Source: Rhodospirillaceae bacterium MC! (GTDB lineage Bacteria; Pseudomonadota; Alphaproteobacteria; MC1). Taken from it: DNA of 64,000 nt. Positions 1 through 55,059 of this stretch are shown here, one piece after another. The notes beneath the pieces are model-generated. The model was not told where the DNA came from and made no database searches. It worked only from the letters and a program-made list of their open reading frames with translations. Location: the NCBI GenBank assembly GCA_002632265.1, contig NQOV01000008.1, positions 1 to 64,000 of the forward strand. The letters are read 5' to 3'. The position numbers were made by a program, and so were the translations under genes. Every line of letters starts with the position of its first letter. Position 1 is the stretch's first letter.

Positions 1-85
1 TAAGTTCCTTATTAAACACCCTTACATAGAAAAGTCTTCCCTTTCTTTCACCTATGTATCAATTCTTTCTACAAATTTCCATATT

Positions 86-199
86 AAAAGAGCGTGAAAA
101 AGCACTCATTCAGTCGTTTTAAGCCATACTCATGTATGTGGTGTATACACCACGCATAGCTTAAAACAACTGACTAAGCACTTTTTCCCACTCCTTTAG
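86..199. repeat. Long imperfect inverted repeat (R3-type arms)
   Basis: The arms at 87-124 and 159-196 are about 38 bp each and pair over most of their length. Several differences are G-T compatible. At the tip, 138-153 is a perfect 16-nt palindrome (GTGGTGTATACACCAC). The arms carry the GTGAAAAAGCACT / AGCACTTTTTCCCAC motif that recurs at 5567-5611 and 35383-35410. It may be a cruciform or a bidirectional terminator; no gene overlaps it. Confidence 0.7.
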
Positions 200-233
200 T
201 TTAAGAGCTAATATAATATTTTAAAGATTACAC

Positions 234-268
234 AAAAAGCGATGAATTAATATTCATCGCTTTTTTTG
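234..268. terminator. Intrinsic terminator hairpin
   Basis: A perfect 14-bp stem (AAAAAGCGATGAAT at 234-247 with 252-265) closes a 4-nt loop and runs into a T tract, the form of a Rho-independent terminator. The flanking A and T runs would let it work in both directions. The gene it serves must lie left of the window or be the minus-strand array to the right. Confidence 0.7.
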
Positions 269-336
269 TTGTTTATAGCATATCTCAAATAAAAGTAACT
301 ATGTTTATACTAAGCTCTTATTTTTTGTGCTGTATG

Positions 337-484
337 ATTTATCATTACTGGCCTAATATGTAGGCCAGTAATGATAAATTAGCCACAAGCTCATACACAA
401 TAATTACCCCATATGAACAAGGAACTAGATCCTAGTTGAATATGTGATCGAACAAACTTTGTGCAACATCGCTATGTTCGGCCC
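337..484 (+). repeat. Composite interspersed repeat, copy A (R1 hairpin + R2)
   Basis: The R1 part is a perfect 19-bp stem (337-355 with 361-379) with core GGCCTAATATGTAGGCC. The R2 part starts near 442 (GATCGAACAAACTTTGTGC) and holds the small palindrome AACATCGCTATGTT. The same R1-spacer-R2 order recurs at 17665-17826, 49811-49980, 63012-63175 and, inverted, at 31875-32146. R2 faces the 3' end of the minus-strand TM2 array. Confidence 0.75.
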
Positions 485-682
485 GTCTGGCAAGACTTCC
501 GCCCGAGTAGGGCAACCGTCTGTTAAGACTTCCGCCCGAGTAGGGCAACCGTCTGTCAAGACCTCCGCTCGAGTAGGGCGACTGTCTGGCAAGACCTCTG
601 CTCGAGTAGAGCGACCGTCTGTTAAGACCTTTGCTCGAGTAGGGCGACTGTCTGTCAAGACCTCCAACTAAAGAGTGCGACT
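485..682. repeat. 33-bp tandem repeat, six units
   Basis: Units start at 485, 518, 551, 584, 617 and 650; the last is degenerate. Each intact unit has two short inverted repeats: GTCT-N4-AGAC and GCCC-GAGTA-GGGC. In later units the second stem becomes GCTC/GAGC or GCTC/GGGC, so pairing is kept through compensatory or wobble changes. The array extends the right end of the R2 element. Because 33 is a multiple of 3, both strands show open frames of 11-residue repeats, which look spurious. Confidence 0.85.
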
Positions 683-695
683 GCCAAAGCTGGGC

Positions 696-1031
696 TTATA
701 CAAGTATATTACCATTACTATTAGTTTTTTTAAATAGGCTTGAGATTGCTAGGATTTTTATGAATAGGATGAATAGGGCGATTAGGGTTAAAGATATTGC
801 AGGGACTATTCTAAATATTGAGAAAGTGTCGGTATTTAGGCGGTAGATGGCTGCTCCGATGATCATTAGGGCGAATAGTAGTATGAATGATCCTAAGAAC
901 ATGAATCCTTTCTTTTTTCGCCCTGCGTAAAATTCGTGGATACCGAATTCGCCGAAAAAGAAAGTTAAGATGAAGTATGGGATTTTTTGTACTTGTACTT
1001 TTTTGTTATTGTTGTTGGTTGTAGTAGTCAT
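696..1031 (-). CDS. Short TM2-domain membrane protein
   Basis: This 111-residue inner-membrane protein of unknown role is the last gene of a nine-member tandem array. It lacks the N-terminal soluble domain of its neighbours and starts with a Thr/Asn/Lys-rich stretch. The TM2 signature GIHEFYAG lies at residues 30-37 after a first hydrophobic helix, followed by two more hydrophobic segments and the family tail NSNGNILV. I chose the start at 1031 because AAAGGAAT precedes that ATG; a longer frame from 1109 adds 26 residues without domain support. TM2 domains form helical hairpins, but their function in bacteria is mostly unknown. Confidence 0.85.
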   Translation of the reverse strand: MTTTTNNNNKKVQVQKIPYFILTFFFGEFGIHEFYAGRKKKGFMFLGSFILLFALMIIGAAIYRLNTDTFSIFRIVPAISLTLIALFILFIKILAISSLFKKTNSNGNILV

Positions 1032-1128
1032 ATGGTTGATTCCTTTTAGTTGTGAACTATAATAATCTAGGCTTAATACTTTGTAAGTATAGCATAATTT
1101 ATATTTCAAAGCAAGTCTTTTAAAGCTT

Positions 1129-1629
1129 TTACCATTTGGATATAACTATATTACCGTTTCGGTTGGCGGTTGAGCAGAGGATTATAATTCCTCGAATGAA
1201 TAAATATATGGCAATGGCTAAATATACAAACATGTAAATTAAGAACAAGCTTGCTGATAGCTCATTGATACCAACTCCTAAAAATGCGAAACAAAATATG
1301 AAAAATCCCACAGTTATTCCAGCGAATAAAGATCCTGCTTTAAAATTACCTACGGAAAACTCATGAACGCCCCAGAGACCTAATAATATGCAAAGTAAAC
1401 CATATGATTGCTTATTGACATATATTTTACCGTATATTTCTGGTTCGAATTCGGCTTGATTTGGATCGGAGCTGGGGGAAAATATATATTTGTCGCTGTG
1501 TTTATAGACATCTACGGACATGAATTCTTGAATATCAAAATCAAAATCATCTCGATTGGCGTTAATTGTTGAGCCGTCGTCCAGACCTACGATGATGTTA
1601 TTATATTCGATACGTAATATTTTTGCCAT
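1129..1629 (-). CDS. TM2-domain protein with N-terminal soluble domain
   Basis: The 166-residue protein has a soluble N-terminal region (about 1-70) built on the array pattern VGLDDGST...DFDF...VDVYKHSDKYIFS, predicted here to be beta-rich. A membrane part follows from residue 74 with the variant TM2 motif GVHEFSVG (87-94) and further hydrophobic segments. It ends RNGNIVISKW, like the next gene upstream. It is the most divergent of the seven long-form members. Function unknown; the motif pattern supports membership of the family, and a regulatory or sensing role would be speculation. Confidence 0.88.
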   Translation of the reverse strand: MAKILRIEYNNIIVGLDDGSTINANRDDFDFDIQEFMSVDVYKHSDKYIFSPSSDPNQAEFEPEIYGKIYVNKQSYGLLCILLGLWGVHEFSVGNFKAGSLFAGITVGFFIFCFAFLGVGINELSASLFLIYMFVYLAIAIYLFIRGIIILCSTANRNGNIVISKW

Positions 1630-1669
1630 TGTGCTTGCCCTTATTTTTATGTTGTGATATTGCTATGTT

Positions 1670-2179
1670 TTACCATTTAGATATTAATATATTACCGTTT
1701 TTGTTGGGGGTTTTGCATAGGGTAATGATTGCAAAGATTTTGGTTACGATGATGTAGCCGTATAGAGTTATATTTATAGCTAATCCTAATCCTGTGTTTG
1801 GTTCGTCGTAGTCTGAGGATATTATTTGGCAGATTAATGTAATAAGTACAATTATTAATACTATCAGGGAAAGAATCCATAAGAAGCCTTTTTTGGGGTT
1901 GCCTGCGTAAAATTCGTGAACACCAATTGAACCAGTAAAGAAATATAGTAAGCCGTAGGCTGTTTTGTTAACATATATTTTGCCTTGGATTTCTGGTTCG
2001 CTTTCTTTAAATGCTTGAAGATTTTGGGAAAAGATATATTTATCATCGTGTGTATGAACATCTACTACAAGACCCACATGAAGATCGAAATTAAATTCAG
2101 TGCTTGAGACTTCGATAACTGATCCGTCATCCATACCAACTAGAACTTGAGTGTTATCTATTTTGATTATTTTAGCCAT
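1670..2179 (-). CDS. TM2-domain protein with N-terminal soluble domain
   Basis: This 169-residue member has the typical layout: MAKIIKIDN start, VGMDDGSVIEV and EFNF motifs, VDVHTHDDKYIFS near residues 39-51, then GVHEFYAG at 86-93 and KKG, two or three membrane segments, and the tail NKNGNILISKW. About 140 nt at its 5' end (2040-2179) are identical to the 5' end of the upstream paralogue (2621-2760), which implies recent duplication or gene conversion. Function unknown. Confidence 0.9.
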   Translation of the reverse strand: MAKIIKIDNTQVLVGMDDGSVIEVSSTEFNFDLHVGLVVDVHTHDDKYIFSQNLQAFKESEPEIQGKIYVNKTAYGLLYFFTGSIGVHEFYAGNPKKGFLWILSLIVLIIVLITLICQIISSDYDEPNTGLGLAINITLYGYIIVTKIFAIITLCKTPNKNGNILISKW

Positions 2180-2253
2180 GTTCTGACTCCTTTATTATAT
2201 TAAGGGATGTAAAGTGCGATTTGCTTATTTTTATGTTGTAAGAATTGTTGTGT

Positions 2254-2760
2254 TTACCATTTAGATACTAATATATTACCGTTTTTGTTGGGGGTTTTGC
2301 ATAGGGTAATGATTGCAGGGATTTTGGTTATGATGATGTAGCTGTATAGAATTATATTTATAGCGACTCCTGTTTCTCGTTCGTTGTAGTCGCCTGCGAT
2401 TATCATTTGGTAGACTACTGTAATAAGTACAATTATTAATACTATCAGGGAAAGAATCCATAATAAGCCTTTTTTGGGGTTGCCTGCGTAAAATTCGTGA
2501 ACGCCAATTGGACCAGTAAAGAAGTATAATAAGCCGTAGGTTGTTTTGTTAACATATACTTGGCCTTGGATTTCTGGTTCGCTATCTTCAAATGCTTGAA
2601 GATTTCGGGAAAAGATATATTTATCATCGTGTGTATGAACATCTACTACAAGACCCACATGAAGATCGAAATTAAATTCAGTGCTTGAGACTTCGATAAC
2701 TGATCCGTCATCCATACCAACTAGAACTTGAGTGTTATCTATTTTGATTATTTTAGCCAT
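2254..2760 (-). CDS. TM2-domain protein with N-terminal soluble domain
   Basis: This 168-residue protein is the closest paralogue of the gene at 1670-2179. The N-terminal domain differs at only a few residues, while the last membrane segments have diverged (VVYQMIIAGDYNERE in place of LICQIISSDYDEPN). The TM2 motif GVHEFYAG and the adjacent NPKKG are intact, and the tail is NKNGNILVSKW. Sequence is therefore kept in the soluble half and drifts in the loop between membrane segments. Function unknown. Confidence 0.9.
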   Translation of the reverse strand: MAKIIKIDNTQVLVGMDDGSVIEVSSTEFNFDLHVGLVVDVHTHDDKYIFSRNLQAFEDSEPEIQGQVYVNKTTYGLLYFFTGPIGVHEFYAGNPKKGLLWILSLIVLIIVLITVVYQMIIAGDYNERETGVAINIILYSYIIITKIPAIITLCKTPNKNGNILVSKW

Positions 2761-2774
2761 TGCTTTGCCTTAAA

Positions 2775-3233
2775 TTAGAATTTATTAACAAGAATTTTAC
2801 CGTTTTTTGGTGTTTTGCATAGGGTTATAATTGCAAGGATTAGTATTACAACACTATAAGCAATCCCCACAAAAAGCGTATTGCGTCTTAAGGAGTAATT
2901 TATTAAGCTTATTACGATAGTTAATAAGATCCACAGAAAGCCTTTTTTAGGATTTCCTGCGTAAAATTCGTGGATTCCCAATTGACCAAGGAAGAAAAAG
3001 AATAATCCGTATGGCACTTTGTTAACCGCTACTTTATCTTGTGGCACTTCGATATCGTCGGCGTTTGTGGGTGTTGGTTGTGAGAAGATGTAAGTATCAT
3101 TATGTTTGTGAGCGTCTACTTGCATATTTTCACTAATGGGAAAATTAAATTCGCTTTTTGCCACTTCGATTGTAGAGCTGTCATCCAAACTAACGGTTAC
3201 TTTATCATTATCGATTGTGATTATTTTAGCCAT
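2775..3233 (-). CDS. TM2-domain protein with N-terminal soluble domain
   Basis: This 152-residue member begins MAKIITIDNDKVTVSLDDSS, where DDSS replaces the DDGS of other copies. EFNF, HKHNDTYIFS, the TM2 motif GIHEFYAG (86-93) and the tail KNGKILVNKF follow. It forms a close pair with the next gene upstream at a spacing of 473 bp. The junction sequence around the start and the preceding stop is repeated almost exactly, so the duplicated unit is gene plus spacer. Function unknown. Confidence 0.9.
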   Translation of the reverse strand: MAKIITIDNDKVTVSLDDSSTIEVAKSEFNFPISENMQVDAHKHNDTYIFSQPTPTNADDIEVPQDKVAVNKVPYGLFFFFLGQLGIHEFYAGNPKKGFLWILLTIVISLINYSLRRNTLFVGIAYSVVILILAIITLCKTPKNGKILVNKF

Positions 3234-3247
3234 TGCTTTGCCTTAAA

Positions 3248-3715
3248 TTAGAATTTATTAACAAGAATTTTGCCGTTTTTTGATGTTTTGCATAGGGTTA
3301 TAATTGCAAGAATTATTACTATAATAACATAAATCAAGCCAATAAATGCGAAAAATATAGATTGTTTTTGTAGCATATAACTTATGACCCTTATTACTAC
3401 ACTAACTACAATCCATATTACGCCTTTTTTATGGTTTCCTGCGTAAAATTCGTGGATTCCCAATTGACCAAGGAAGAAAAAGAATAATCCGTATGGCACT
3501 TTGTTAACCGCTACTTTACCTTCTGGCACTTCGATATCGTCGGCGTTTGTGGGTGTTGGTTGTGAGAAGATGTAAGTATCATTATGTTTGTGAGTATCTA
3601 CTTGCATATTTTCACTAATGGGGAAGTTAAATTCTGTTTTTGCTACTTCGATTGTAGAGCTGTCATCCAAACTAACGGTTACTGTATCATTATCGATTGT
3701 GATTATTTTAGCCAT
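3248..3715 (-). CDS. TM2-domain protein with N-terminal soluble domain
   Basis: This 155-residue sister of the gene at 2775-3233 shares long identical stretches, for example the region encoding the TM2 motif and the residues before it (about 3437-3513 against 2956-3032). The TM2 motif is GIHEFYAG followed by NHKKG. Divergence is concentrated in the membrane segments after the motif (VIWIVVSVVIRVISYML). Tail SKNGKILVNKF. A 120-nt spacer and then a decayed TM2 copy lie upstream. Confidence 0.9.
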   Translation of the reverse strand: MAKIITIDNDTVTVSLDDSSTIEVAKTEFNFPISENMQVDTHKHNDTYIFSQPTPTNADDIEVPEGKVAVNKVPYGLFFFFLGQLGIHEFYAGNHKKGVIWIVVSVVIRVISYMLQKQSIFFAFIGLIYVIIVIILAIITLCKTSKNGKILVNKF

Positions 3716-3837
3716 GTTATTATTATCCTTACTTGCTTTTTATATTATATTAAATGGGTGTGAGTCATTTACTGAAGTTTCACATTGAAAGTTATCTTAT
3801 CACATAGCTATTTATAAATCAAGTGTTAAATTTTACT

Positions 3838-3982
3838 TAATTATTTATAGGGTGATATATCCGTGTTTATGGCTTTTGATTCTGATTGCTTTTATGTTAT
3901 CTAAATAACCCATATATTATTTATTAGGTAAACTAACTTGAATGCGTAAGTGATAAATATAGGTAGGGAATTTTTGTTAAAA
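3838..3982 (-). pseudogene. Decayed 3' part of a short-form TM2 gene
   Basis: The DNA aligns closely with the 3' end of the intact gene at 5168-5548; both share TAATTATTTATAGG, GATTGCTTTTATG and ACGTAAGTGATAAATATAGG-like blocks. In the gene's frame the remnant ends ...YGHKHSKIRIAKIND, but a 1-bp deletion near 3905-3925 shifts the frame and exposes stops. The N-terminal half, with the TM2 motif, is missing. It shows that the array once held another short-form copy here. Confidence 0.8.
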
Positions 3983-4471
3983 TTATTTATTTAAGAGAAT
4001 ATTTCCGTTGCGGTTTTCTTTTCTGTTGCAAAGGATTATGATGGCGTAAATTTTTACGAAGATTATGATGTATGACAGATAAAGTAGTGCTAACATTAAT
4101 ATAATTAGTTTGATAACGGGGTCTTCTGCTAGGCTAGCAATGACAATAAAACTGATTGGGATGATAAAGAATAAGGAAGCACGAAAGAATCTTTTAGCGT
4201 AAAATTCGTGAGCACCTACAAAACCTAATAACAGAGCAAAGAGGCAGAATGCTATTTTATTTACGTATATTTTGCCTTCTATTTCAGGTTCTACTTCAAA
4301 GCCTGTTTTGTGGTCAGGGGCAAAAATGTTTTTACCGTCGTGATTGTAGATATTTAAGGGCGTATTTACTTGAATAGGAAAAGTAAATTCTGATCTTGGA
4401 ACGTCGATTGCTGATCCGTCATCTAGTCCAACCATTACTTGATCGATAGTAATTTTAATAATTTTAGCCAT
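3983..4471 (-). CDS. TM2-domain protein with N-terminal soluble domain
   Basis: This 162-residue member has the usual N-terminal block (VMVGLDDGSAIDV, EFTFPI, NHDGKNIFA) and then the linker EVEPEIEGKIYVNK. The TM2 motif is altered to GAHEFYA followed by KRFFRAS, so the usual G-N-x-K-K-G is lost. Three hydrophobic segments follow, then the tail RKENRNGNILLNK. Its start at 4471 follows a weak purine-rich stretch. Function unknown. Confidence 0.88.
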   Translation of the reverse strand: MAKIIKITIDQVMVGLDDGSAIDVPRSEFTFPIQVNTPLNIYNHDGKNIFAPDHKTGFEVEPEIEGKIYVNKIAFCLFALLLGFVGAHEFYAKRFFRASLFFIIPISFIVIASLAEDPVIKLIILMLALLYLSYIIIFVKIYAIIILCNRKENRNGNILLNK

Positions 4472-4514
4472 GTTTGTATATTCTCCATAGTTTTAAGCAT
4501 GTAAGTAGTAGATA

Positions 4515-4577
4515 TTACCATTTACTTATAAGAATGTTAGCGTTGCGGTTTTCTTTGTGATTACACAAACGCATAAC
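4515..4577 (-). pseudogene. C-terminal fragment of a long-form TM2 gene
   Basis: A 20-codon minus-strand remnant translates as ...MRLCNHKENRNANILISKW followed by a stop. It matches the family tail (for example CNRKENRNGNIL and ISKW of neighbours). No upstream TM2 coding sequence remains; the gene at 4587 begins only 9 bp away. This is the second relic showing that copies are lost as well as gained. Confidence 0.8.
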
Positions 4578-4586
4578 AGACTAGAA

Positions 4587-5033
4587 TTATCTTTTGCCTT
4601 TAATAAGAATTTGACCGTTTTCATCAGCCTCTTTGCAGAATGTTATAATTGCACAAATGAATACGGCAGGGATGAAAATCAATAGTGGGAAACATAAACA
4701 GATGATAGATCCCACACATCCAAGAATCCATAGAAAAGCTTTTTTAGGGTTACCTGCGTAAAATTCATGAATGCCAATATGACCAAAGAAGAAAAATAAC
4801 AAAGCATATGGAATTTTATTCACAGGTTTCATGCCATAAGGAATAGGGACGCCTGACGCTGTATTGTTAGATTGTGAGAAAATATATCTATCTTCATGTT
4901 TATAAGCGTCTATAAGCATACCTTCAGCAATTGCAAAATCAAAATCTAGAGGCGAAACCTCTAAAGTTGTTTTGTCATCCATGCCAACTAGTACAAGATT
5001 ATTATCTTTATTAATTTGAAGTATTTGAGCCAT
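4587..5033 (-). CDS. TM2-domain protein with N-terminal soluble domain
   Basis: The 148-residue protein starts MAQILQINKDNNLVLVGMDDKTTLEV, where DDKT replaces DDGS. DFDFAI and YKHEDRYIFS follow, and a 20-residue linker leads into the TM2 motif GIHEFYAG plus NPKKAFLWILG. The last membrane segments are short and Cys-containing (SIICLCFPLLIFIPAVFICA). It ends ENGQILIKGKR. It keeps the two hallmark blocks but diverges elsewhere. Function unknown. Confidence 0.88.
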   Translation of the reverse strand: MAQILQINKDNNLVLVGMDDKTTLEVSPLDFDFAIAEGMLIDAYKHEDRYIFSQSNNTASGVPIPYGMKPVNKIPYALLFFFFGHIGIHEFYAGNPKKAFLWILGCVGSIICLCFPLLIFIPAVFICAIITFCKEADENGQILIKGKR

Positions 5034-5167
5034 TATCTTTGCCTTTGTCTTTTTTCTATGTATATATGATTATATTAATTGTAATATGGATTGTAACATA
5101 TCCATATCTAAAATTTATGTTATCATATAGTGTTGTTCAACACAAGTATTAATTTTTGGTTAATTAT

Positions 5168-5548
5168 TTATAGGTAGATGTATCCCTTTTTATCGCTTTT
5201 GTTTTTGATTGCTTTTATGCCGTCGAGTATGACCCATATGTTATTGATAAGGTAAAGTAACTTTAATACGTAAGTGATAAATATAGGTAATGGATTTTTA
5301 TTTAAACCATTTATTAAGTAATCTAACATGCTTTGATCGTGATTTTGTAGGATCATGATGAATTCCATTAAAAACACGCTAAAGGGAATGCAAAATAATA
5401 TCAGTAAAATTATTCCGTGGAGTGTTTTATTGATGAAGAATTTATGAACGCCCCATGTTCCTAAAAGAAATATGAGCCATACATAGGTTGATTTTTTTAC
5501 TTTTACTTGTTTTATTTTTGTTTTCGGCTTTGGCTTAGGTTGTGGCAT
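5168..5548 (-). CDS. Short TM2-like membrane protein
   Basis: This 126-residue protein is the first gene of the array. It has a Pro/Lys-rich N-terminus (alternating PKPKPKTK) instead of the soluble domain, then the weak TM2 motif GVHKFFIN, a long hydrophobic segment and a further membrane segment ending NKSDKKGYIYL. Its 3' half is the parent type of the decayed copy at 3838-3982. Whether it still counts as TM2 rests on the G-x-H-K-F-F core and its position. Confidence 0.8.
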   Translation of the reverse strand: MPQPKPKPKTKIKQVKVKKSTYVWLIFLLGTWGVHKFFINKTLHGIILLILFCIPFSVFLMEFIMILQNHDQSMLDYLINGLNKNPLPIFITYVLKLLYLINNIWVILDGIKAIKNKSDKKGYIYL

Positions 5549-5566
5549 GGCTCATATAAAACTCTC

Positions 5567-5611
5567 TAAAGGGTGGGAAAAAGTGCTTGAGTGAGTGCTT
5601 TTTCACGCCCT
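5567..5611. terminator. R3-type hairpin after serS
   Basis: The arms AGGGTGGGAAAAAGTGCTT and GAGTGCTTTTTCACGCCCT pair with a few mismatches, and the hairpin abuts the serS stop codon. It probably ends the serS transcript on the minus strand. The motif matches the arms at 86-199 and the half copy after dgoD at 35383-35410. Confidence 0.55.
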
Positions 5612-6887
5612 AGGAAATAACTTCTAAGCCACCCATGTAAGGGCGAAGAACTTCGGGTACAATGATAGATCCGTCGGCTTGTTGGTAGTTTTCCATTACG
5701 GCGATTAGACATCTGCCGATGGCGATACCTGATCCGTTAAGAGTGTGAACGAATTCGGTATTTTTTTCGCTTTTTTTTCTGAAACGTGCTTTCATGCGAC
5801 GGGCTTGGAATTCGCCTGTGGTTGAACAGCTGGAAATTTCTCGATATGTGTTTTGCCCAGGCAACCATACTTCAATATCGTATGTTTTGCGAGCCGAGAA
5901 ACCAAGATCGCCAGTGCAAAGCCTTACAACACGGTAGGGGATATCAAGCTTTTTTAGGATGTTTTCGGCACATCCTGTCATGCGTTCTAGTTCATTATCG
6001 GACTCGCTGGGTTTTGATAGTGTTACCATTTCGACCTTAGCAAATTGGTGTTGGCGTAACATGCCTTTTGTGTCTCGTCCTGCTGATCCTGCCTCGGATC
6101 TAAAACATTGGGTTAGGGCGGTCATGCGAATGGGTAATTTTTCTTCATCGATGATAGTATTGGAAAATTGGTTAGTTATGCTCACTTCGGCGGTGGGGAT
6201 TAGCCAAAAATCGCTATTTTCAATTTTATAAAGATCTTCGCCAAATTTAGGGAGTTGACCTGTACCATATAGAGCCGAACTGTTGACAATTACTGGGGTT
6301 TGTACTTCTTCTAGTTCGTGTTCTATAATGTGAGTGTCTAACATGAAACTTGACAAAGCACGCTCTAATCTGGCAAGATTTTTTCTTAGGATCACAAAGC
6401 GAGAGCCTGATATTTTAGTGGCGGTTAGGAAATCCATTTGCCCAAGATTTTCCCCTAGCTCGTAATGTTCTTTTGGAGTAAAATCGAACTGCTTGATTGT
6501 GCCATAGGTGCGTATTTCTTCGTTGTCGCTCTCATCTGTGCCTTTGGGTGTATCGGCATATGGTAGGTTGGGGATGGCCATAAGATCACGGTTGAGATCG
6601 TCAATTAATTCTTTGGCTTTGTTTTCTAAAACTGTAACTTCTTCTTTTGATTTTGCTACTTGTTGTTTTAGTTCTTCGGCTTTGTCCTTTTTGCCGTGTT
6701 TCATGGCCATGCCGATTTCTTTTGATAGAACGTTGCGTTCTGCCACTAAGGTTTCCGATTGAGTGATGACTTTTCGGCGAATCTCATCTTTAAGAAGTAA
6801 TTTTTCTGCTAGGGGGTCTAGTCCTCTAAGTGTTAAACCTGCGTCAAATTCATCTGGGTTAGTTTTTATAAATTTTATATCGTGCAT
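5610..6887 (-). CDS. serS: Seryl-tRNA synthetase
   Basis: This cytosolic enzyme charges tRNA-Ser, and also tRNA-Sec where present, with serine using ATP. The 425-residue length is standard. The N-terminal coiled-coil tRNA-binding arm runs to about residue 110 ([14 protein letters not shown] start, heptad-rich [15 protein letters not shown]). The class II core follows, with motif 2 around [24 protein letters not shown] and motif 3 near [20 protein letters not shown]. It sits before the minus-strand tatC-BMP pair in the read direction but is probably a separate unit with an R3 hairpin at its end. Confidence 0.97.
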   Translation of the reverse strand: [425 protein letters not shown]

Positions 6888-6937
6888 TGTCTTAATCCTT
6901 GGCTATGTATTATGTATTATGTGTTGTATGTTATATG

Positions 6938-7822
6938 CTATGTGTTGAAATCGGTATCCATGAAATTATGATGGCTGATTATGGTGGGTTGTTGTGGAGT
7001 TTTTCCATTTTCATAGGCATTTTGAGATGTCTTATTTAATGGTCTTATGATAAATCTTCCTATGATTATAGATGATTCATAAAGTAAAATCAAGGGAATT
7101 GCTAGCAAACATTGAGAAATAATGTCAGGCGGAGTTACTATCGCCGAGATTATAAAGGAAATTAATATGGCAAACTTTCTAAATTTCTTTAAGTTTCCTA
7201 TGCTTACTACGTTGAATTTCACTAAAAATAAGAGAAATATCGGTAATTCGAACCCCATGCCGAAAATGGTTATTAAGTGCATTATAAGAGATAAATATTG
7301 ATCAACTTTAGCTTGTAAAATTATCGGTAAGGAATTCGATGAGGGCAGTTTTTCAAAGCTAAGAAAGAAATTCCACGCTCTTGGAATTACGATAAAGTAG
7401 GAAAAACAAGCACCTAGCACAAACAAAACAGGCGATAAAATAATAAATGGTAAGATTGCAAGTTTTTCATATTTATATAAAGCAGGCGATAAAAATAACC
7501 ATGTGTTGATTATGAATAGGGGAAAAGTGGCAAATAAGCCAAACCATAGGGCGATCTTAATATATGTTACAAAGGTTTCCGATAAACCTGTGGCGATCAT
7601 TACATGTTTGTATCCTGTTAGATTGTGGGCGTTGGCTAGCGGATATCTTAAGATTTCAAAAATATTATCGGCAAAAATGTAACCGATGATCGAGCTAACT
7701 ACAAACCATAGGAGAATTATCATTATTTTTCGTCTAAGATCCATGAAGTGATCCATTAAGCTTAGATGTTTATCATTATATTCTGTGTGTTTATGCTCTG
7801 GAGATTCTTGAGATTTTGCCAT
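6938..7822 (-). CDS. tatC: Twin-arginine translocase subunit TatC
   Basis: TatC is the six-helix inner-membrane receptor that binds twin-arginine signal peptides and, with TatA and TatB, exports folded proteins. The 294-residue protein opens with a hydrophilic His/Lys-rich tail, then MDHFMDLRRKIM, the family's conserved N-terminal block. The cytoplasmic FxxE-like region and the GMGFELPIF segment, with the conserved Glu, are present. No tatA or tatB lies in the window. The start at 7822 is 4 nt after the upstream stop, so translation may be coupled. Confidence 0.95.
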   Translation of the reverse strand: MAKSQESPEHKHTEYNDKHLSLMDHFMDLRRKIMIILLWFVVSSIIGYIFADNIFEILRYPLANAHNLTGYKHVMIATGLSETFVTYIKIALWFGLFATFPLFIINTWLFLSPALYKYEKLAILPFIILSPVLFVLGACFSYFIVIPRAWNFFLSFEKLPSSNSLPIILQAKVDQYLSLIMHLITIFGMGFELPIFLLFLVKFNVVSIGNLKKFRKFAILISFIISAIVTPPDIISQCLLAIPLILLYESSIIIGRFIIRPLNKTSQNAYENGKTPQQPTIISHHNFMDTDFNT

Positions 7823-14044: not shown

Positions 14045-14845
14045 ATGTTTAAATTAAAACAAGCTTTCTTATGTTCGACTATCGTACTTTCTTTCTTTAC
14101 CTTGTCAATGTCGGCCAATGCTAATGAAAGCCAAGAAACATCAACAAATACAACAAATACAGATACCACTCAAACCGCTAATACCAATACAGCGAACCAG
14201 AATAAACCTGCTACTAATCCTCTTAATCATCCTCATTTGGGTATCGGTGCTTATTTAGAATTGGGTGGGAATTTTAATTTTATTGATATGTTTAATGCCA
14301 AAAGCGATACCGAAGAAGTATCAATTGGAAAATCAGCTAATTTTACTGGTGGTTTTGGCGTTAGATTTAATACTTTTTCTATAGGTATGGATGTAGCTAT
14401 TCTTAGTCCTAATGTAAATTTTAAATATACAGGCTTAGGGCATACTGTTGTTACTGCTATTGATAATGCTATTGATGGTACTGATGTTAATACCGTAGGC
14501 TATTTAGATACTAATATTGTTCTTTTTAAATTTTCACGTGAATTACTAATTAGTGATCATGCTTCTATGTCTTTAAATATCGGTTTAGGTGCGGCCGCAT
14601 ATACGGTACACGATTCAAAAGAAAATGTTAGATATTCGCCAGTATATATAAATCCTGCTGTAATGGGTGGCGTGGATTTTAGATTGTATCTTGGTAAAGA
14701 TCGAGGGCTTTATCTTTCTGCAGGTGCAAGATATACTCATATTTTTCAAAAAGAATTGGTTATAGATACTCTTTTATCTTCACATACCCTAACAGGTGGC
14801 TTGGGTACAGCTCAAGGAATTGTTAAAATCGGCTATCAATTTTAA
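14045..14845 (+). CDS. Outer-membrane beta-barrel protein 1
   Basis: The 266-residue precursor has a signal peptide ending SMSANA-NES. A Thr/Asn-rich linker (about residues 27-58) follows, then alternating hydrophobic strands such as GIGAYLELGGNFNF and FTGGFGVRFNTFSIGMDV. The C-terminal strand ends KIGYQF; the terminal Phe is the usual recognition signal for the BAM assembly complex. It shares strand motifs with the two genes downstream, so the three are paralogues of the small-barrel (OmpA-barrel-like/opacity) kind. AAAGGAATC precedes the start. Function unknown: pore, adhesin or structural. Confidence 0.8.
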   Translation: MFKLKQAFLCSTIVLSFFTLSMSANANESQETSTNTTNTDTTQTANTNTANQNKPATNPLNHPHLGIGAYLELGGNFNFIDMFNAKSDTEEVSIGKSANFTGGFGVRFNTFSIGMDVAILSPNVNFKYTGLGHTVVTAIDNAIDGTDVNTVGYLDTNIVLFKFSRELLISDHASMSLNIGLGAAAYTVHDSKENVRYSPVYINPAVMGGVDFRLYLGKDRGLYLSAGARYTHIFQKELVIDTLLSSHTLTGGLGTAQGIVKIGYQF

Positions 14846-14891
14846 CCTATCTTGATTCTATTGATAATTCTTGTTAAATATCAATTTTTCA

Positions 14892-14930
14892 AATATCCCC
14901 CAGCGTGAATTTATTGTGGTGGGGGATATT
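14892..14930 (+). terminator. Hairpin after OMP 1
   Basis: Stem AATATCCCCC (14892-14901) with GGGGGATATT (14921-14930) and a 19-nt loop containing GTGAATTTATTGTGG. The loop closely resembles that of the hairpin after OMP 2 (15721-15757). The T tail is weak. Confidence 0.65.
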
Positions 14931-15014
14931 CGTATCCTATTGAGATAATTAAGTTAATGATAGTACGATAGTTGCAAATAATATTGCATTTTAAATACTT
15001 AAAGGGGATCAGCT

Positions 15015-15043
15015 ATTGACAAATGATTTATTTTGTGATAGTA
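15015..15043 (+). promoter_or_regulatory. OMP 2 promoter, TTGACA-17-TAGTAT
   Basis: TTGACA at 15015-15020 and TAGTAT at 15038-15043. The spacer shares the block TGATTTATTTTGTG with the OMP 3 promoter, so promoter and gene were duplicated together. A TTG-initiated frame at 15016 lies inside this -35 box and is not the real start. Confidence 0.8.
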
Positions 15044-15087
15044 TGTTAGAGTGTGTAGTAGAATTTATATTTGAAAGGACATTCAAA

Positions 15088-15684
15088 ATGTCAAAATTAA
15101 AAACACTTTTATTATCTTCGGCGGTATCGCTTGCAATATTACCGACTGTAGCTCATGCCGATGATATTGGCTTTTACGCAGATTTAGGTGGTAACTTTAC
15201 CTACTCTAATTTGGATTACGATGGGGATACAAACATCGATTACATAAGATCTTTAGGTGTTACTGGTGGTTTTGGTATGAAAATAGATGCTGTTACTATT
15301 GGTGCTGATGTATCTTCAATGGGTTTAGACGGTGCTTATACTGCCTTATCTCTTGCTAAAATTGGCTTAGAATATACCTTTGGCAAGCATAATACTCTTT
15401 ATGTTTCTTTAGCTGGCGGTGGTGCGTTTTCAGTGGCTGATAATGATGTCTTAAATACTGACGCCCTAAAAGATATGCAGATAGATCCTGCCGTAGCTCT
15501 TGGTGCAGGCTATAAAATTTATTTTGATAAAAAAGACGGTTTTTATTTAGATCTTGGTGTAAGATATATTAAAACCTTTCCAAAAGATACAGTGTTAGAT
15601 TTCGGTTATGGTTCAAAACCTGTAGTGATAGAAAATAAATTTTCTACAGTACAAGGAACATTAAAAATTGGATATCAATTCTAA
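15088..15684 (+). CDS. Outer-membrane beta-barrel protein 2
   Basis: This 198-residue precursor has a textbook signal peptide (MSKLKTLLLSSAVSLAILPTVAHA, cleaved before DDIG). The mature part begins GFYADLGGNFTYS and contains the family blocks VTGGFGMKIDAVTIGADVS, FGKHNTLYVSLAGGGA and GAGYKIYFDKKDGFYLDLGVRY. It ends KIGYQF. I chose ATG 15088, preceded by GAAAGGAC, since the in-frame upstream TTG lies in the promoter. It is the shortest barrel of the three and lacks the low-complexity linker of OMP 1. Confidence 0.82.
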   Translation: MSKLKTLLLSSAVSLAILPTVAHADDIGFYADLGGNFTYSNLDYDGDTNIDYIRSLGVTGGFGMKIDAVTIGADVSSMGLDGAYTALSLAKIGLEYTFGKHNTLYVSLAGGGAFSVADNDVLNTDALKDMQIDPAVALGAGYKIYFDKKDGFYLDLGVRYIKTFPKDTVLDFGYGSKPVVIENKFSTVQGTLKIGYQF

Positions 15685-15720
15685 TTTATAAATATTTGAT
15701 AAATAATCTTTATCTTAATC

Positions 15721-15757
15721 CCCCTTACCTGCGAATTTATCGTGGTAAGGGGTTTTT
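15721..15757 (+). terminator. Intrinsic terminator after OMP 2
   Basis: Stem CCCCTTACC (15721-15729) with GGTAAGGGG (15744-15752), then TTTTT. The loop TGCGAATTTATCGT is related to the loop after OMP 1. Confidence 0.8.
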
Positions 15758-15842
15758 GTGTCATATTGATAGGGTTAAACTAATGATAGCCTTAGAGTTA
15801 TAAATAATATTCTATTTTAGATACTTAGGAGAAATAAATATA

Positions 15843-15871
15843 TTGACAGTTGATTCATTTTGTGTTATTGT
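15843..15871 (+). promoter_or_regulatory. OMP 3 promoter, TTGACA-17-TATTGT
   Basis: TTGACA at 15843-15848 and TATTGT at 15866-15871. The spacer block TGATTCATTTTGTG is almost the same as in the OMP 2 promoter. Confidence 0.7.
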
Positions 15872-15918
15872 GGTTATAATAAATATAATTATGAAATTCA
15901 TATTTGAAAGGAAATACA

Positions 15919-16674
15919 ATGTTAAGATTTTCAACTTCAAAGCTTTTTTTATGCCCAACTGTGGCAATTTTATGCTTACTAGCTGGGGGAAATGTGGCGA
16001 ATGCTTTAGGATATTATCCAAGAGATACCAAAGACACATTACCACCAATAAAAAATCCCCACCCAAATGTAGGCGGATACGTGGAAGCAGGCGGAAACCT
16101 TGGCTTTATGGATGTTCTATCAGTTAAAACCGCTGGCGGTCATGAATTTGAAAAAACTACAATCAATAGCTCAAATGGAGGCTATAACGCAGGAGTAGGA
16201 ATTCGCTTTTATGGCGTTGCCATAGGAGTCGATGCGTCAATGTTCACCCTACCCATAAATCATCAATTCTTAGGCTACGATTTTGGCGGTGGATTAACTC
16301 AATCAGAAGAAGACGAAGAAACTATCGGTAATGTCAATATGTCCGTAATTACCGCAAAACTCACAACCGAATACATCTTCGACGGCCACAACACCCTATA
16401 CGCTCACTTCGGTGCAGGGACTGCAATGTACGATATCTCCGACGAAAATAACAACACAAAATACTCCGACCAATACATAAAACCCGCCCTAACCGTAGGA
16501 GCAGGCTATAAACTATACACAGAACAAAATAAAGGCCTCTACCTACTAATCGGTGCAAAATACACCGCCATAATCAATAACAACCTCAAAACCCACAAAA
16601 CCGCAGGCAATCTCGACCTATCAGGCTGGCTAAACATAACCCAACTCGAACTTAAAATCGGCTACCAATTCTAA
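15919..16674 (+). CDS. Outer-membrane beta-barrel protein 3
   Basis: The 251-residue precursor starts MLRFSTSKLFLCPTVAILCLLAGGNVANA, a signal peptide cleaved before LGYY. Barrel blocks match the paralogues: VGGYVEAGGNLGFMDV, GVGIRFYGVAIGVDASM, FDGHNTLYAHFGAGTAMYD, VGAGYKLYTEQNKGLYLLIGAKY and the end KIGYQF. I chose ATG 15919 after GAAAGGAAATACA, not the TTG at 15904. Codon use changes along the gene: the last 200 nt favour C-ending codons and carry few G, unlike the T-rich start of its paralogues. Confidence 0.82.
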   Translation: MLRFSTSKLFLCPTVAILCLLAGGNVANALGYYPRDTKDTLPPIKNPHPNVGGYVEAGGNLGFMDVLSVKTAGGHEFEKTTINSSNGGYNAGVGIRFYGVAIGVDASMFTLPINHQFLGYDFGGGLTQSEEDEETIGNVNMSVITAKLTTEYIFDGHNTLYAHFGAGTAMYDISDENNNTKYSDQYIKPALTVGAGYKLYTEQNKGLYLLIGAKYTAIINNNLKTHKTAGNLDLSGWLNITQLELKIGYQF

Positions 16675-35321: not shown

Positions 35322-35410
35322 ACTACAGGCCTACAGGCCTAAATGCCAAATTTAATCCCCCATACATAAGCATGACTTAAGGACGGTGAATGAGTACTTT
35401 TTCACACTCC
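35322..35410. repeat. Degenerate R1 and half R3 after dgoD
   Basis: 35322-35345 holds a broken R1 (CTACAGGCCTACAGGCCTAAATG). 35383-35410 carries one R3 arm (GAGTACTTTTTCACACTCC) directly at the dgoD stop codon. Confidence 0.5.
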
Positions 35411-41079: not shown

Positions 41080-41700
41080 TTAAAACTTACGCTTAGATTT
41101 TATTTGTTTGATGAGTTGTAGGGATTGGGAGCGTTGTTGTTTGGATAGGGATTGGGAGATGTGGTTTTCTTCTATTTGGACGTCGGGGTCGTGGATGTTG
41201 GCGAGGGTGTACCATGCGTATGCTTTAATTTTATCTTTGGCGACGCCGTAGCCGTTTTTGTAGATACGGGCGATCATGAGTTCGGCACGTGGGACGTGTT
41301 TCATTTCGGCTACTTCAATGTAGAGTTTTAGGGCTTTTTTATAGTCTTGTTTAACGGAAAAGCCGTCATAGTATATGGTTGCAAGGTTGTATTTAGCTTT
41401 ATAACTGCCGTTATTTGCGGATTTATTGTACCACATTAGGGATTTTTTCATATCTTTATCGATAACAATACCCTTAGCATAGAAGAGGGCTAAGACGAAT
41501 TGAGCGTAGCTATTGTTTTTATTGGCGTAATTTTGCCAACATTTTATATTGGCGTTTCCCACTCCGCATTTGTGTTGCATTTCTTTGTTGGAAATGGCGT
41601 AAGATAGGGAACTAAAAGCTAGGCTAAAAACCAATATTAAGATTCCAACATTTAAGAATGTCATACTTATTTTGCTAATATTAATATGCTGTAATTTCAT
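41080..41700 (-). CDS. Sel1-repeat protein
   Basis: The 206-residue protein has an N-terminal signal or anchor (VGILILVFSLAFSSLSYA). About four Sel1-like repeats follow, with the pattern A-x2-x-L-x3-Y-x2-G-x-x-V-x-x-D-x-x-K-A: YAQFVLALFYAKGIVIDKD, AKYNLATIYYDGFSVKQDY and AELMIARIYKNGYGVAKDK. Sel1 repeats mediate protein contacts. A Cys pair (CGVGNANIKC) precedes the repeats. The last 150 nt of the gene are C-rich on the coding strand. Confidence 0.85.
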   Translation of the reverse strand: MKLQHINISKISMTFLNVGILILVFSLAFSSLSYAISNKEMQHKCGVGNANIKCWQNYANKNNSYAQFVLALFYAKGIVIDKDMKKSLMWYNKSANNGSYKAKYNLATIYYDGFSVKQDYKKALKLYIEVAEMKHVPRAELMIARIYKNGYGVAKDKIKAYAWYTLANIHDPDVQIEENHISQSLSKQQRSQSLQLIKQIKSKRKF

Positions 41701-50048: not shown

Positions 50049-52031
50049 TTAACCATTAGAGCAGAAGTAAGGGAGAAGGCGTTTGTTGGGGTTGGATTTT
50101 AGGCGTTTGAGTACTTTTGGGGAGCATACTCGTTGGTGGGAGTTTTTTGTCTTTGCTTTTGTTTTTGTTTTTGCTTTAGTTTTTGTCTTTGTCTTTGGTT
50201 TGGTTTGGGTTTTGGTGGTTGGGTTGATGGATTGGTTGAGGATTTGTTGTTCGGCGGGGGATAGGGTTATGTTGGTGGTGTTGTCGATGACGAATGATTC
50301 ATCTTTTGGGGGTTGGTTGGTGGTTGTGGTGGTAGTTGGAGAGGTTGGAGTGGGTGTGTTATTATTATTGGCATTATGATTTTGTTCATTGTTTATGGTG
50401 GAACTATGGACTGTTGTTTGGGGTGGGGTTTTTGCTTTAGGGGTAGTTGTTTTCTTGTGAGTTGGGGTTCGGGTCGGGGTTTGGATTGGGGGAGTGTTGG
50501 AGCTGTTGGAGTCGCTGGGTTTTATGGCTAGGGAATCGTCGAAAACGTCAAAGGTTTCGTTACCGCTATCATCGTAATTTGCGATTGAAGATTCTACGCT
50601 TTCGGCGGCGTCTTCTATGGTGTTTGAAAGCATATAATCAAGATTTTTTCTTACTTGGTCTAGGGTTTGCCCTGTGATATCGGCTTCTAGTTTAATAAAA
50701 TAATTTTTTTGGACATTAAGTTGAGCGTCTTCTCGTTCATGATTGCGAATATTTCTTTCGTTTTGATTGGCTACTATGGTATTTTTAATGATTTTATAGA
50801 TATCTTCCGCTTTTGTGGCGTAAGATTTAGGACTCTGTTTTTTTGTCATGATATATAGAGTATTATCATAGGTCATATCATTAAAGATTTTAGCCCAAGC
50901 GATACCACGTATGCGATCTTGAGACACGCCGAATCCTTTCATGTAATAGCCGATAAGGGTTTGTATAGCGTCAGTATTACCTTTTAGAGCTGATTCTTTG
51001 ATTTCGTTAAAGGCGATTTTTATGGCTTTATTGTAGGCGATTTTATTGAGATTAAATTGATGTCTCACGTCGTAACGTGCTTGGCGTTCTTTTTTGCTGG
51101 GAACGTATTTTCTATGATGAGTTCTTAAATATGATTTAGCTTTTAAGATATCTTGAGATATGCGTAAATGCAATTGATCTTGATCTAAATAGGCGTGAGT
51201 ATGATTTTCTTGTAAGGTTGCCAGACCGTGATAATAACATCCGTAGATATTTTGCATTTTACAGGCTTGTTCAAAATATTGATTTGCGATTGTAAGATTG
51301 GGATTCATATTCGTTCCAGAGAAGTATATTAATCCTAAATTTACGGTAGATTGAACATAACCTAAATTACTTGCCTTAGTAAAATATGATTTTGCATTTG
51401 TGATATTAAAAGGCACGCCATGGAATCCATTTAAACTATACACGCCTAATTTATTTAAGACTATCCCTTCTTGATCGTTATTGGCGGCCTCGTGGAATAG
51501 GCTATAACCGATTTTTTTATTGGGCTTAACCGATACCGCACCTACAACATACATTTGCCCAAGGATAAATTGAGCATAGGCATATTGTTCATTTGCCGAT
51601 TGCTTAATGAGATTTACCCCTTTTGTTGCTTCTACCTTATCGTTACCTGCTTGGTTATAGGTTAATAACCCTAGTATTAGTTGGGATGTGGGAACGCCTA
51701 AGTTGGCGTATTTTTCCAAGCATTCTATATTATTACCGCATACGCTATGAATTTTCTTGATATCGATGAAAAATTTAGTTTTATATTCATGTTCTTCGGT
51801 AATTGTTTGGAGATCTGTTAAGGGCGTAGGAGCGTAGGATTGCTTGGTTGATACTTCAGGAATCGGCGGGCTTTTTTCTTGATAGAAATCCTTAACTTGG
51901 GGTTGTGGGACGTCGTTATCTTCGTTAGTTTGCGGATTTTGGCTCGCTGATGTACTATCACTACATGATATTAGAAATATAGAACTCATTAAGACTATTA
52001 TTATGTATAAGCTTTTTTTTAAATTCATCAT
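50049..52031 (-). CDS. Large Sel1-repeat lipoprotein
   Basis: The 660-residue lipoprotein has lipobox LISC (MSSIFLISC). A Sel1-repeat region (about residues 95-400) follows, with units such as SQLILGLLTYNQAGNDKVEA, AQFILGQMYVVGAVSVKPN and TVNLGLIYFSGTNMNPN. A low-complexity tail (about 510-630) is rich in Thr/Pro/Lys, including a KTKTKAKTK run, and ends with a Cys-bearing segment. Sel1 lipoproteins scaffold envelope or host-contact proteins. Two adjacent ATG codons could start it. The KT tail is short-period DNA and may vary in length. Confidence 0.82.
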   Translation of the reverse strand: MMNLKKSLYIIIVLMSSIFLISCSDSTSASQNPQTNEDNDVPQPQVKDFYQEKSPPIPEVSTKQSYAPTPLTDLQTITEEHEYKTKFFIDIKKIHSVCGNNIECLEKYANLGVPTSQLILGLLTYNQAGNDKVEATKGVNLIKQSANEQYAYAQFILGQMYVVGAVSVKPNKKIGYSLFHEAANNDQEGIVLNKLGVYSLNGFHGVPFNITNAKSYFTKASNLGYVQSTVNLGLIYFSGTNMNPNLTIANQYFEQACKMQNIYGCYYHGLATLQENHTHAYLDQDQLHLRISQDILKAKSYLRTHHRKYVPSKKERQARYDVRHQFNLNKIAYNKAIKIAFNEIKESALKGNTDAIQTLIGYYMKGFGVSQDRIRGIAWAKIFNDMTYDNTLYIMTKKQSPKSYATKAEDIYKIIKNTIVANQNERNIRNHEREDAQLNVQKNYFIKLEADITGQTLDQVRKNLDYMLSNTIEDAAESVESSIANYDDSGNETFDVFDDSLAIKPSDSNSSNTPPIQTPTRTPTHKKTTTPKAKTPPQTTVHSSTINNEQNHNANNNNTPTPTSPTTTTTTNQPPKDESFVIDNTTNITLSPAEQQILNQSINPTTKTQTKPKTKTKTKAKTKTKAKTKNSHQRVCSPKVLKRLKSNPNKRLLPYFCSNG

Positions 52032-54456: not shown

Positions 54457-55059
54457 ATGAAACTAGGAAAAAAAACCCATTACGCCGTAGTATCACTTAT
54501 ATATTTAGCTCATGATAACAAGAAAAATGATCCTGTTTCGCTTTCTACTATCTCGGCTAGTCAAGATTTATCCTTAATGTATTTGGAAAAATTGTTCGTG
54601 AATTTGAGAAATGCGGGAATTGTTCAAAGCGTACGAGGCCCTGGTGGCGGATATAAGTTGGAAAAAAAGCCCATAGATGTATCTGTGTGGGATATCGGCT
54701 TGGCAGTTGGCGAAGTGTTCTCCGCTAGCCAGTGCGATAAATGTGCAGGCGATAACTGTTCATCCAACGGCAATAATAAAAGTGAGTGTAATAACACAAA
54801 CGATAAGCATAATCATACACACAATCATACCCACAATTATAATCATGAAACTCACGATCATAAATCTCACGATCATAAGAGTCATAATCATAAGAGTCAT
54901 AACCATGATCATGAGACTCACGACCATAAGGACAATAGCACACTTGCCATGTGTAAAACCTACGCCCTATGGGACGGTTTAGAAAACACCATGCAAACCT
55001 ATCTTGAAAGCATTTCCCTGGATTCTCTTTTAGATAGTTCCAAATGCGACTGGGGTTAA
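54457..55059 (+). CDS. Rrf2/IscR-family regulator with a His-rich insertion
   Basis: The 200-residue protein has the Rrf2 winged helix (MKLGKKTHYAVVSLIYLAH...LSLMYLEKLFVNLRNAGIVQSVRGPGGGYKL). A Cys block follows (C93, C96, C101), then about 60 inserted residues with 17 His in units such as HDHKSHDHK, then C166 in MCKTYALW and the IscR-type end (YLESISLDSLL). In IscR the equivalent block is C-L-T-H-A-L-W, whose His binds the [2Fe-2S] cluster; here it is Tyr169. The insert suggests metal binding. A cysteine desulfurase follows. Confidence 0.88.
   Translation: MKLGKKTHYAVVSLIYLAHDNKKNDPVSLSTISASQDLSLMYLEKLFVNLRNAGIVQSVRGPGGGYKLEKKPIDVSVWDIGLAVGEVFSASQCDKCAGDNCSSNGNNKSECNNTNDKHNHTHNHTHNYNHETHDHKSHDHKSHNHKSHNHDHETHDHKDNSTLAMCKTYALWDGLENTMQTYLESISLDSLLDSSKCDWG

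Follow-up and report, generated by a model that had tools for sequence, protein, structure and literature searches.

A nine-gene tandem array of TM2 membrane proteins in an alphaproteobacterial genome, with putative relatives in streptococcal prophages

We have analyzed a tandem array of genes for small membrane proteins located at positions 696-5548 (minus strand) of a 64,000-nucleotide stretch of alphaproteobacterial DNA. This stretch, referred to here as the window, is the first 64,000 bases of its contig (NQOV01000008.1) in a source genome of 2,046,227 bases in 19 contigs that is 95.5% complete. The array consists of nine intact, complete open reading frames (ORFs). By sequence comparison it appears to have arisen in this lineage through tandem expansion of a gene whose small membrane product is composed of an acidic barrel of ~52 residues, a linker, a TM2 unit and a short tail strand. 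The same architecture appears to be shared with proteins from the lysogeny modules of streptococcal prophages. The family identity of the array proteins is well supported by these comparisons, while their function is what we infer.

A first-pass annotation of this DNA had described a nine-gene array of TM2-domain proteins in which seven members are fused to a distinct N-terminal domain and two short forms at the ends lack it. Alignment of all nine proteins confirmed this arrangement. Seven ORFs encode an N-terminal domain of ~52 residues (here the N-domain), a linker and a TM2 unit; the outermost two (g1 and g9, the genes being numbered by increasing coordinate) are without the N-domain. All nine proteins match the Pfam TM2 model (PF05154), seven of them above its gathering score of 27.9 bits, and the two sub-threshold proteins, g2 and g7, still align over their length with the other members. 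The array proteins carry the TM2 signature G-x-x-G-x-H-x-F. The seven long forms align across the entire N-domain and carry the motifs named in the annotation, such as V-G-x-D-D-G-S and E-F-N-F.

The short form g1 (696-1031; 111 aa; TM2 score 36.3 bits) is preceded by AAAAGGA; its coordinates are counted from its ATG, and the mechanical ORF extends to 1109. On the same strand lie the long forms g2 (1129-1629; 166 aa; 17.4 bits), g3 (1670-2179; 169 aa), g4 (2254-2760; 168 aa), g5 (2775-3233; 152 aa), g6 (3248-3715; 155 aa), g7 (3983-4471; 162 aa; 22.6 bits) and g8 (4587-5033; 148 aa), and then the short form g9 (5168-5548; 126 aa; 28.2 bits), which has a Lys-rich N-terminus. Genes g3 and g4 form one young pair and g5 and g6 another, the latter with a tandem period of 482 bp. 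The N-domain occupies 3078-3233 in g5, whose structure was modelled, and 1474-1629, 2024-2179, 2605-2760, 3560-3715, 4316-4471 and 4872-5033 in the other six long forms. Two relics, also on the minus strand, are interspersed with the intact genes. The one at 3845-3965 derives from the 3' end of a g9-like short form (82.8% DNA identity over 122 alignment columns, E = 4e-15). The other, at 4515-4556, represents a long-form 3' end that reads KENRNANILISKW followed by a stop; it has 16 exact bases in common with g7 (E = 9e-5), the remainder being recognized by eye. Copies have therefore also been lost from the array, and array turnover is evident in nine genes, two relics and unevenly diverged young pairs. 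Neither the relics nor the uneven divergence had been noted in the annotation. As judged by eye, a purine-rich stretch resembling a ribosome-binding site precedes the ATG of eight of the nine genes and is weak for 5168-5548. Positions 1-7000 contain 19 promoter-like sites, fewer than shuffled sequences do (mean 29.2), and these thus provide no argument for expression of the array.

The local expansion proposed in the annotation is real, and this is the sole such cluster found in the source genome. A whole-protein profile of the array gave nine matches there, all within the array, and a profile of the N-domain alone gave seven, all of them the long forms, even at E <= 10. The Pfam TM2 search counts eight genes in the source genome where the array's own profile counts nine. 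At E <= 0.001, the Pfam TM2 model matches 72 of the 384 other sampled alphaproteobacterial genomes (73 of 385 with the source genome included), and the most matches in any one of these others are four (G094), followed by three (G048 and G300). The array is unusually large for the TM2 family. The profile search also covered 57 other genomes picked as relatives, none of which is closer than the same class.

Over the N-domain, scans of the array proteins gave no Pfam or NCBIfam model above its cut-off where cut-offs were shown. The N-domain scored at best 18.2 bits against DUF1344 (PF07076; gathering score 23.1) and 16.5 bits against Myosin_N (cut-off 27), and the NCBIfam matches were weak and unrelated-looking. 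The phage family phrog_10680 matches all nine proteins at E <= 1, mainly over TM2, with g2 unmatched at E <= 0.01. Two array genes align with it at profile positions 8-113 and 9-113 of 144, a span that includes the N-domain; on realignment one of the two extended over 10-113 and the other, in a separate scan, only from 44. A hidden Markov model (HMM) of the window N-domains alone picked four distinct phage proteins (five ORFs) with scores of 23.2, 22.1, 19.1 and 15.8 bits, and the next best of the 94 ORFs tested scored 2.3 bits. These 94 ORFs were the family-profile matches at E < 0.01, from 91 loci with some duplicates and with source-genome loci left out. Two of the four proteins are in Streptococcus phage records (Javan227 and Javan355) and two in IMG/VR contigs with no stated host. 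Because an HMM built only from the window N-domains, and hence independent of TM2, picks these phage proteins, an N-domain + TM2 architecture common to the array and phages of Bacillota is well supported at the level of sequence. The suggestion that the N-domain may be undescribed holds insofar as neither Pfam nor NCBIfam names it. The domain is not specific to the array, however, being present in four phage proteins and spanned by alignments with phrog_10680; these phage relatives rule out an N-domain peculiar to the array. Occurrence with TM2 across many phyla, which the annotation had held would count against its proposal, was found in part, namely in this phylum and in Bacillota phages.

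A Bacillota-type probe sequence matched 44 phage records, and only those of Javan227 and Javan355 over at least 80% of its length. Proteins similar to N-domain + TM2 presumably also occur on Bacillota chromosomes. Phage searches returned no match for g8 (4587-5033) at E <= 0.01 or for g6 (3248-3715) at E <= 10, nor did a search of viral contigs with g3 (1670-2179); a second scan of viral contigs, with four phage proteins, recovered the same three loci. Plasmid searches with g3 found nothing at E <= 0.01 and four TM2-only pieces at E <= 10, and with the Bacillota-type probe they matched 242 records, none over 80% of the query. Scanning genome contigs with two patterns yielded one TM2-only relative, in Enorma. 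A further pattern match (L149) was discarded as a TM2 relative, as by eye it is a terminase-like ORF with an intein-like stretch. The family profile matched (E <= 0.01) 46 of 384 alphaproteobacterial, 36 of 397 other Pseudomonadota and 10 of 198 Actinomycetota genomes. Most of these matches begin in the linker or TM2; a few begin inside the N-domain, several of them at positions 40-51. The N-domain was not found in the TM2 loci examined from these three groups, apart from partial matches in G346 (3-49, E = 0.0061) and G588 (30-111, at most 1.9 bits with the N-domain HMM), and in the 198 Actinomycetota genomes no match begins inside the N-domain.

Among the loci opened, the phage-type TM2 genes occupy a consistent genomic position. 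In 10 of 10 distinct loci the TM2 gene has a repressor- or regulator-type gene on one side and, on the other, a gene for an integrase, a recombinase or a mobile-element protein; these loci comprise 8 of 18 Streptococcus records and the IMG/VR loci L107 and L108, chosen as good matches and not at random. The context of L107 and L108 was read from their ORFs by eye, and L106 holds the same protein as L083. In L087 the flanking gene is annotated as "mobile element protein", and L103 has its annotated regulator on the opposite strand. The N-domain is present in four of the ten loci. The others encode TM2 alone (L085, L086), TM2 with other extensions (L087, L088, L104) or a fusion to RNase_T (L103). 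An RNase_T exonuclease domain fused to TM2 is found in a Streptococcus satellite phage (L103:1587-2513) and in Enorma (L067:5191-6219), and a domain that by eye resembles a helix-turn-helix (HTH) is fused to TM2 on two staphylococcal plasmids (L091:1359-1772 and L105:2088-2501). On the first of these, a 2,321-bp S. epidermidis plasmid, the HTH-TM2 gene is the only listed gene besides rep. In one streptococcal prophage, a SIR2-like (SIR2_2) gene (L106:4713-6308) separates the TM2 gene from the integrase. Precedents have been described: ltp, in the lysogeny module of a temperate Streptococcus phage, encodes the superinfection-exclusion lipoprotein Ltp (PMC3952083), and the prophage product PdpSau, a membrane protein that includes an OB-fold-like region, causes abortive infection and has been compared with AbiP (PMC10127798). 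TM2 genes have also been seen close to one of the genes on a prophage-like fosmid insert, where the function of the domain is said to be unknown (PMC3861447), and a Listeria TM2 protein serves as a lineage marker (PMC11083783).

AlphaFold modelling of g5 from twelve aligned sequences gave a mean predicted local distance difference test score (pLDDT) of 81.4 and a predicted template-modelling score (pTM) of 0.48. The model has five strands (residues 2-51), a strand at 67-71, helices at 72-82, 84-91, 95-114 and 119-138, and a strand at 146-150. In a model of a phage relative, strands and helices follow one another as in g5, though with less confidence (mean pLDDT 69.8, pTM 0.40), and the two models are not independent, since their alignments share window and phage sequences. 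Comparison of residues 1-56 by VIA-align gave as best matches the OB domains of EF-P and IF5A, followed by those of proteasome ATPases and cold-shock proteins. The best row was EF-P (1ueb; Z 8.0, root mean square deviation 1.6, 52 residues); the 50 rows shown range from Z 6.1 to 8.0 with 44-62 residues aligned, and Z below 8 may reflect a common arrangement. With Foldseek, no entry of PDB or BFVD matched at E <= 0.001, and a sequence search of solved structures gave nothing convincing (best E 1.5 and 0.21). The N-domain is predicted to be a five-stranded OB/SH3-like barrel, with no more specific call. Basic residues in the first loop and the tail, seen by eye, suggest that the long forms are oriented with the N-terminus out. 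The opposite orientation is suggested by the Lys-rich N-terminus of g9 and by the N-terminal exonuclease and HTH fusions to TM2 elsewhere.

The strength of selection along the long forms was estimated by the ratio of nonsynonymous to synonymous differences (pN/pS) in 21 pairs, the ratio being defined in 19-21 of them. The values are rough, because many pairs are near synonymous saturation and the hairpin alignments are gapped. Median pN/pS is 0.46 in the N-domain (residues 1-52), 0.84 in the linker (53-69), 0.47 in TM2 (70-104), 0.87 in the hairpin between the last two helices (105-145; range 0.72-1.48) and 0.49 in the tail (146-169). Purifying selection on the N-domain, for which the annotation had proposed a test, is borne out by its median. 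Its statement that the soluble half is kept while membrane loops vary agrees with the values for the N-domain and the hairpin and needs qualification, as the linker varies too. By this measure the barrel, the TM2 signature and the tail are constrained and the linker and hairpin little so. For the linker and hairpin, relaxed constraint would explain ratios of ~0.85-0.87 as well as diversifying selection would. The annotation had also suggested that the expansion reflects selection for diversity or dosage, for example in the envelope or in host interaction; this may apply, with variation confined to one hairpin and the linker.

The two young pairs have diverged unevenly. Genes g3 and g4 agree at each of the first 154 of 501 compared sites and have 32 differences overall (permutation p = 0.0003). 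Between g5 and g6 the longest identical tract covers 84 of 456 sites, and the 59 differences (permutation p = 0.0002) are concentrated in the hairpin block. Synonymous differences between g5 and g6 are also denser in the hairpin (8.5 of 18 sites) than outside it (10 of 82; Fisher p = 0.004 on rounded counts), and the same comparison for g3 and g4 gives p = 0.08. This pattern is compatible with conversion of the flanks and also with a hairpin that changes faster.

The array sits between a putative serS gene and the start of the contig, in a window that is AT-rich (GC 31-40%). Inverted copies of a palindrome at 94-113 and 5587-5606 were considered as the bounds of a mobile unit. This idea was discarded, as the palindrome is dispersed, with 62 sites genome-wide (at most 2 mismatches; 0 for a reversed control), one of them at 35386-35405. 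A 33-bp minisatellite of 5.5 copies at 483-665 was likewise rejected as a part of the system, since 10 of its 15 genome sites (at most 2 mismatches; 0 for a reversed control) are on other contigs, among them C1, C5 and C18. Elsewhere in the window, three genes in a row (14045-16674, plus strand) encode outer-membrane-like proteins of 222-266 aa that end in IGYQF and represent, by eye, another local expansion, and two proteins with Sel1-type-like repeats are also recognized by eye (41080-41700 and 50049-52031, minus strand). The ORF at 54457-55059 (plus strand), which we take to be an Rrf2/IscR-like regulator, carries among its cysteines a long insert rich in His (HNHTHNHTHNYNHETHDHKSHDHK...); downstream lies what is presumably an IscS-like cysteine desulfurase (55180-56364, plus strand).

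As an explanation for these features we tentatively put forward that the array encodes domesticated prophage-type superinfection-exclusion or envelope-defence proteins, which would act at the membrane and be turned over by birth and death; we regard this as possible rather than probable. The ancestor would probably have come in with a phage or some other mobile element, and would then have multiplied on the chromosome adjoining serS. The proteins would reside in the inner membrane with the hairpin exposed, and would exert superinfection exclusion or envelope defence there. The conserved barrel and TM2 core might maintain oligomerisation or contact with a partner, the hairpin would drift or diversify with whatever is blocked at the membrane, and parallel retention of many copies could broaden the range. 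A more specific version, which we consider unlikely, is that a prophage exclusion gene, once domesticated on the chromosome, has turned into a diversity array that provides one bacterium with a repertoire of exclusion proteins at the membrane. Gene conversion would then homogenise the barrel, TM2 core and tail, and a hairpin cassette of ~100-140 bases would vary between copies.

Several observations weigh against a prophage-derived exclusion function. The neighbours of the array resemble ordinary chromosomal genes, which we take to be serS, tatC and a lipoprotein gene, and no integrase was noticed by eye, without a systematic search, in the window ORF list or among ORFs of at least 120 aa. No repressor/integrase pair was noticed by eye beside the array either, although the contig ends 695 bases downstream and that side is unseen. 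A single TM2 gene is present in 60 of the 72 other TM2-positive alphaproteobacterial genomes, whose phage context was not examined. Phage records of Enterococcus (21) and Bacillus (2), unsorted by lifestyle, carry TM2 genes as well. Across phyla the N-domain is only 27-31% identical to that of g5, and a plasmid search with a phage relative matched 235 records, none covering 80% of the query, so that no N-domain was found on plasmids. A hairpin pN/pS near 0.87 is no demonstration of positive selection. For the hairpin of g3 and g4, nonsynonymous and synonymous differences occur in proportions that do not depart from neutral (p = 0.78). The N-domain is acidic, with a net charge of -2 to -6, which makes it a poor match to an OB fold that binds nucleic acids, such as that of AbiP. 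PADLOC gave only weak matches, to KwaA (E = 0.0026) and MTase_II (E = 0.0054), with one member each, and in a literature search we recognized no tested defence function or functional study of a bacterial TM2 protein.

Much of the same evidence bears on other explanations. If the proteins were small inner-membrane regulators or stress proteins for cell-envelope homeostasis, multiplied for dosage, the hairpin would vary only as weakly constrained, lipid-facing sequence. Its roughly neutral median ratio beside a conserved N-domain and tail agrees with this, as do the adjoining genes of apparent housekeeping type and the presence of TM2, mostly as one copy, in other alphaproteobacteria (72 of 384 genomes, 60 of the 72 with a single gene). 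However, nine copies, relics and uneven pairs represent more turnover than a dosage array requires, and the nearest architecture found is phage-borne; we consider this explanation somewhat unlikely. Turnover by itself could result from near-neutral tandem duplication through unequal crossing-over, the copies being retained for want of strong counter-selection. The 482-bp tandem unit, the relics and the long stretches of identity in the two young pairs (154 and 84 sites) are consistent with such a process, but all nine ORFs are intact and the N-domain, TM2 and tail have median pN/pS of 0.46-0.49, and near-neutral duplication is an unlikely account of the array.

A bacterium living with a eukaryotic host might export the proteins into host membranes or expose them there. 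The AT-rich window, a 2-Mb genome with dispersed repeats, the varying membrane hairpins and one weak NCBIfam match (the TomO hydrophobic C-terminal domain, E = 0.032) are in line with host interaction, yet no signal peptide was noticed by eye (no predictor was used) and the nearest relatives are phage proteins, which makes this decidedly improbable. Finally, the N-domain could serve as a membrane-tethered OB module that binds nucleic acids, the arrangement described for AbiP. The ranking of EF-P, IF5A and then proteasome-ATPase and cold-shock OB domains as best structural matches points in this direction, but the net negative charge, the caution that a Z below 8 may be no more than a common arrangement, and the lack of Foldseek matches at E <= 0.001 argue against it, and we consider it very unlikely.

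The array ties a chromosomal family of nine genes to the lysogeny modules of phages whose hosts belong to another phylum, and thereby leads to a testable idea about function, in a group of proteins, TM2, that is widespread. From the young pairs one can see where the protein is conserved and where change is tolerated. Should the defence reading hold, the locus would hold a diversified repertoire of membrane-exclusion proteins; if it is not, a clear recent expansion of a gene family remains.

Compared with the proteins described by the Pfam TM2 model, seven array members differ in their added N-domain. The metazoan TM2D proteins resemble the array proteins in having a TM2 unit of two membrane helices, but they are described with a signal sequence, an extracellular N-terminal region, a DRF loop motif and a Notch-related role (PMC8714088). 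PdpSau and AbiP, likened here by description and not by sequence, also join a membrane segment to an OB-fold-like region; PdpSau is described with one predicted membrane helix and a positively charged soluble domain, in contrast to the acidic barrel of the array. The family phrog_10680 is a phage family of unknown function, and most array genes align over its TM2 half and little before it. The phage relatives (Javan227, Javan355 and the two IMG/VR proteins) lie between repressor and integrase genes. They have a longer, Asn-rich linker, no extra hairpin and one such gene per locus opened, whereas the long forms of the array continue beyond the second helix with additional hydrophobic sequence and a variable hairpin. 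With these differences, the phage proteins are like the long forms in their N-domain, linker, TM2 unit and G-x-I tail.

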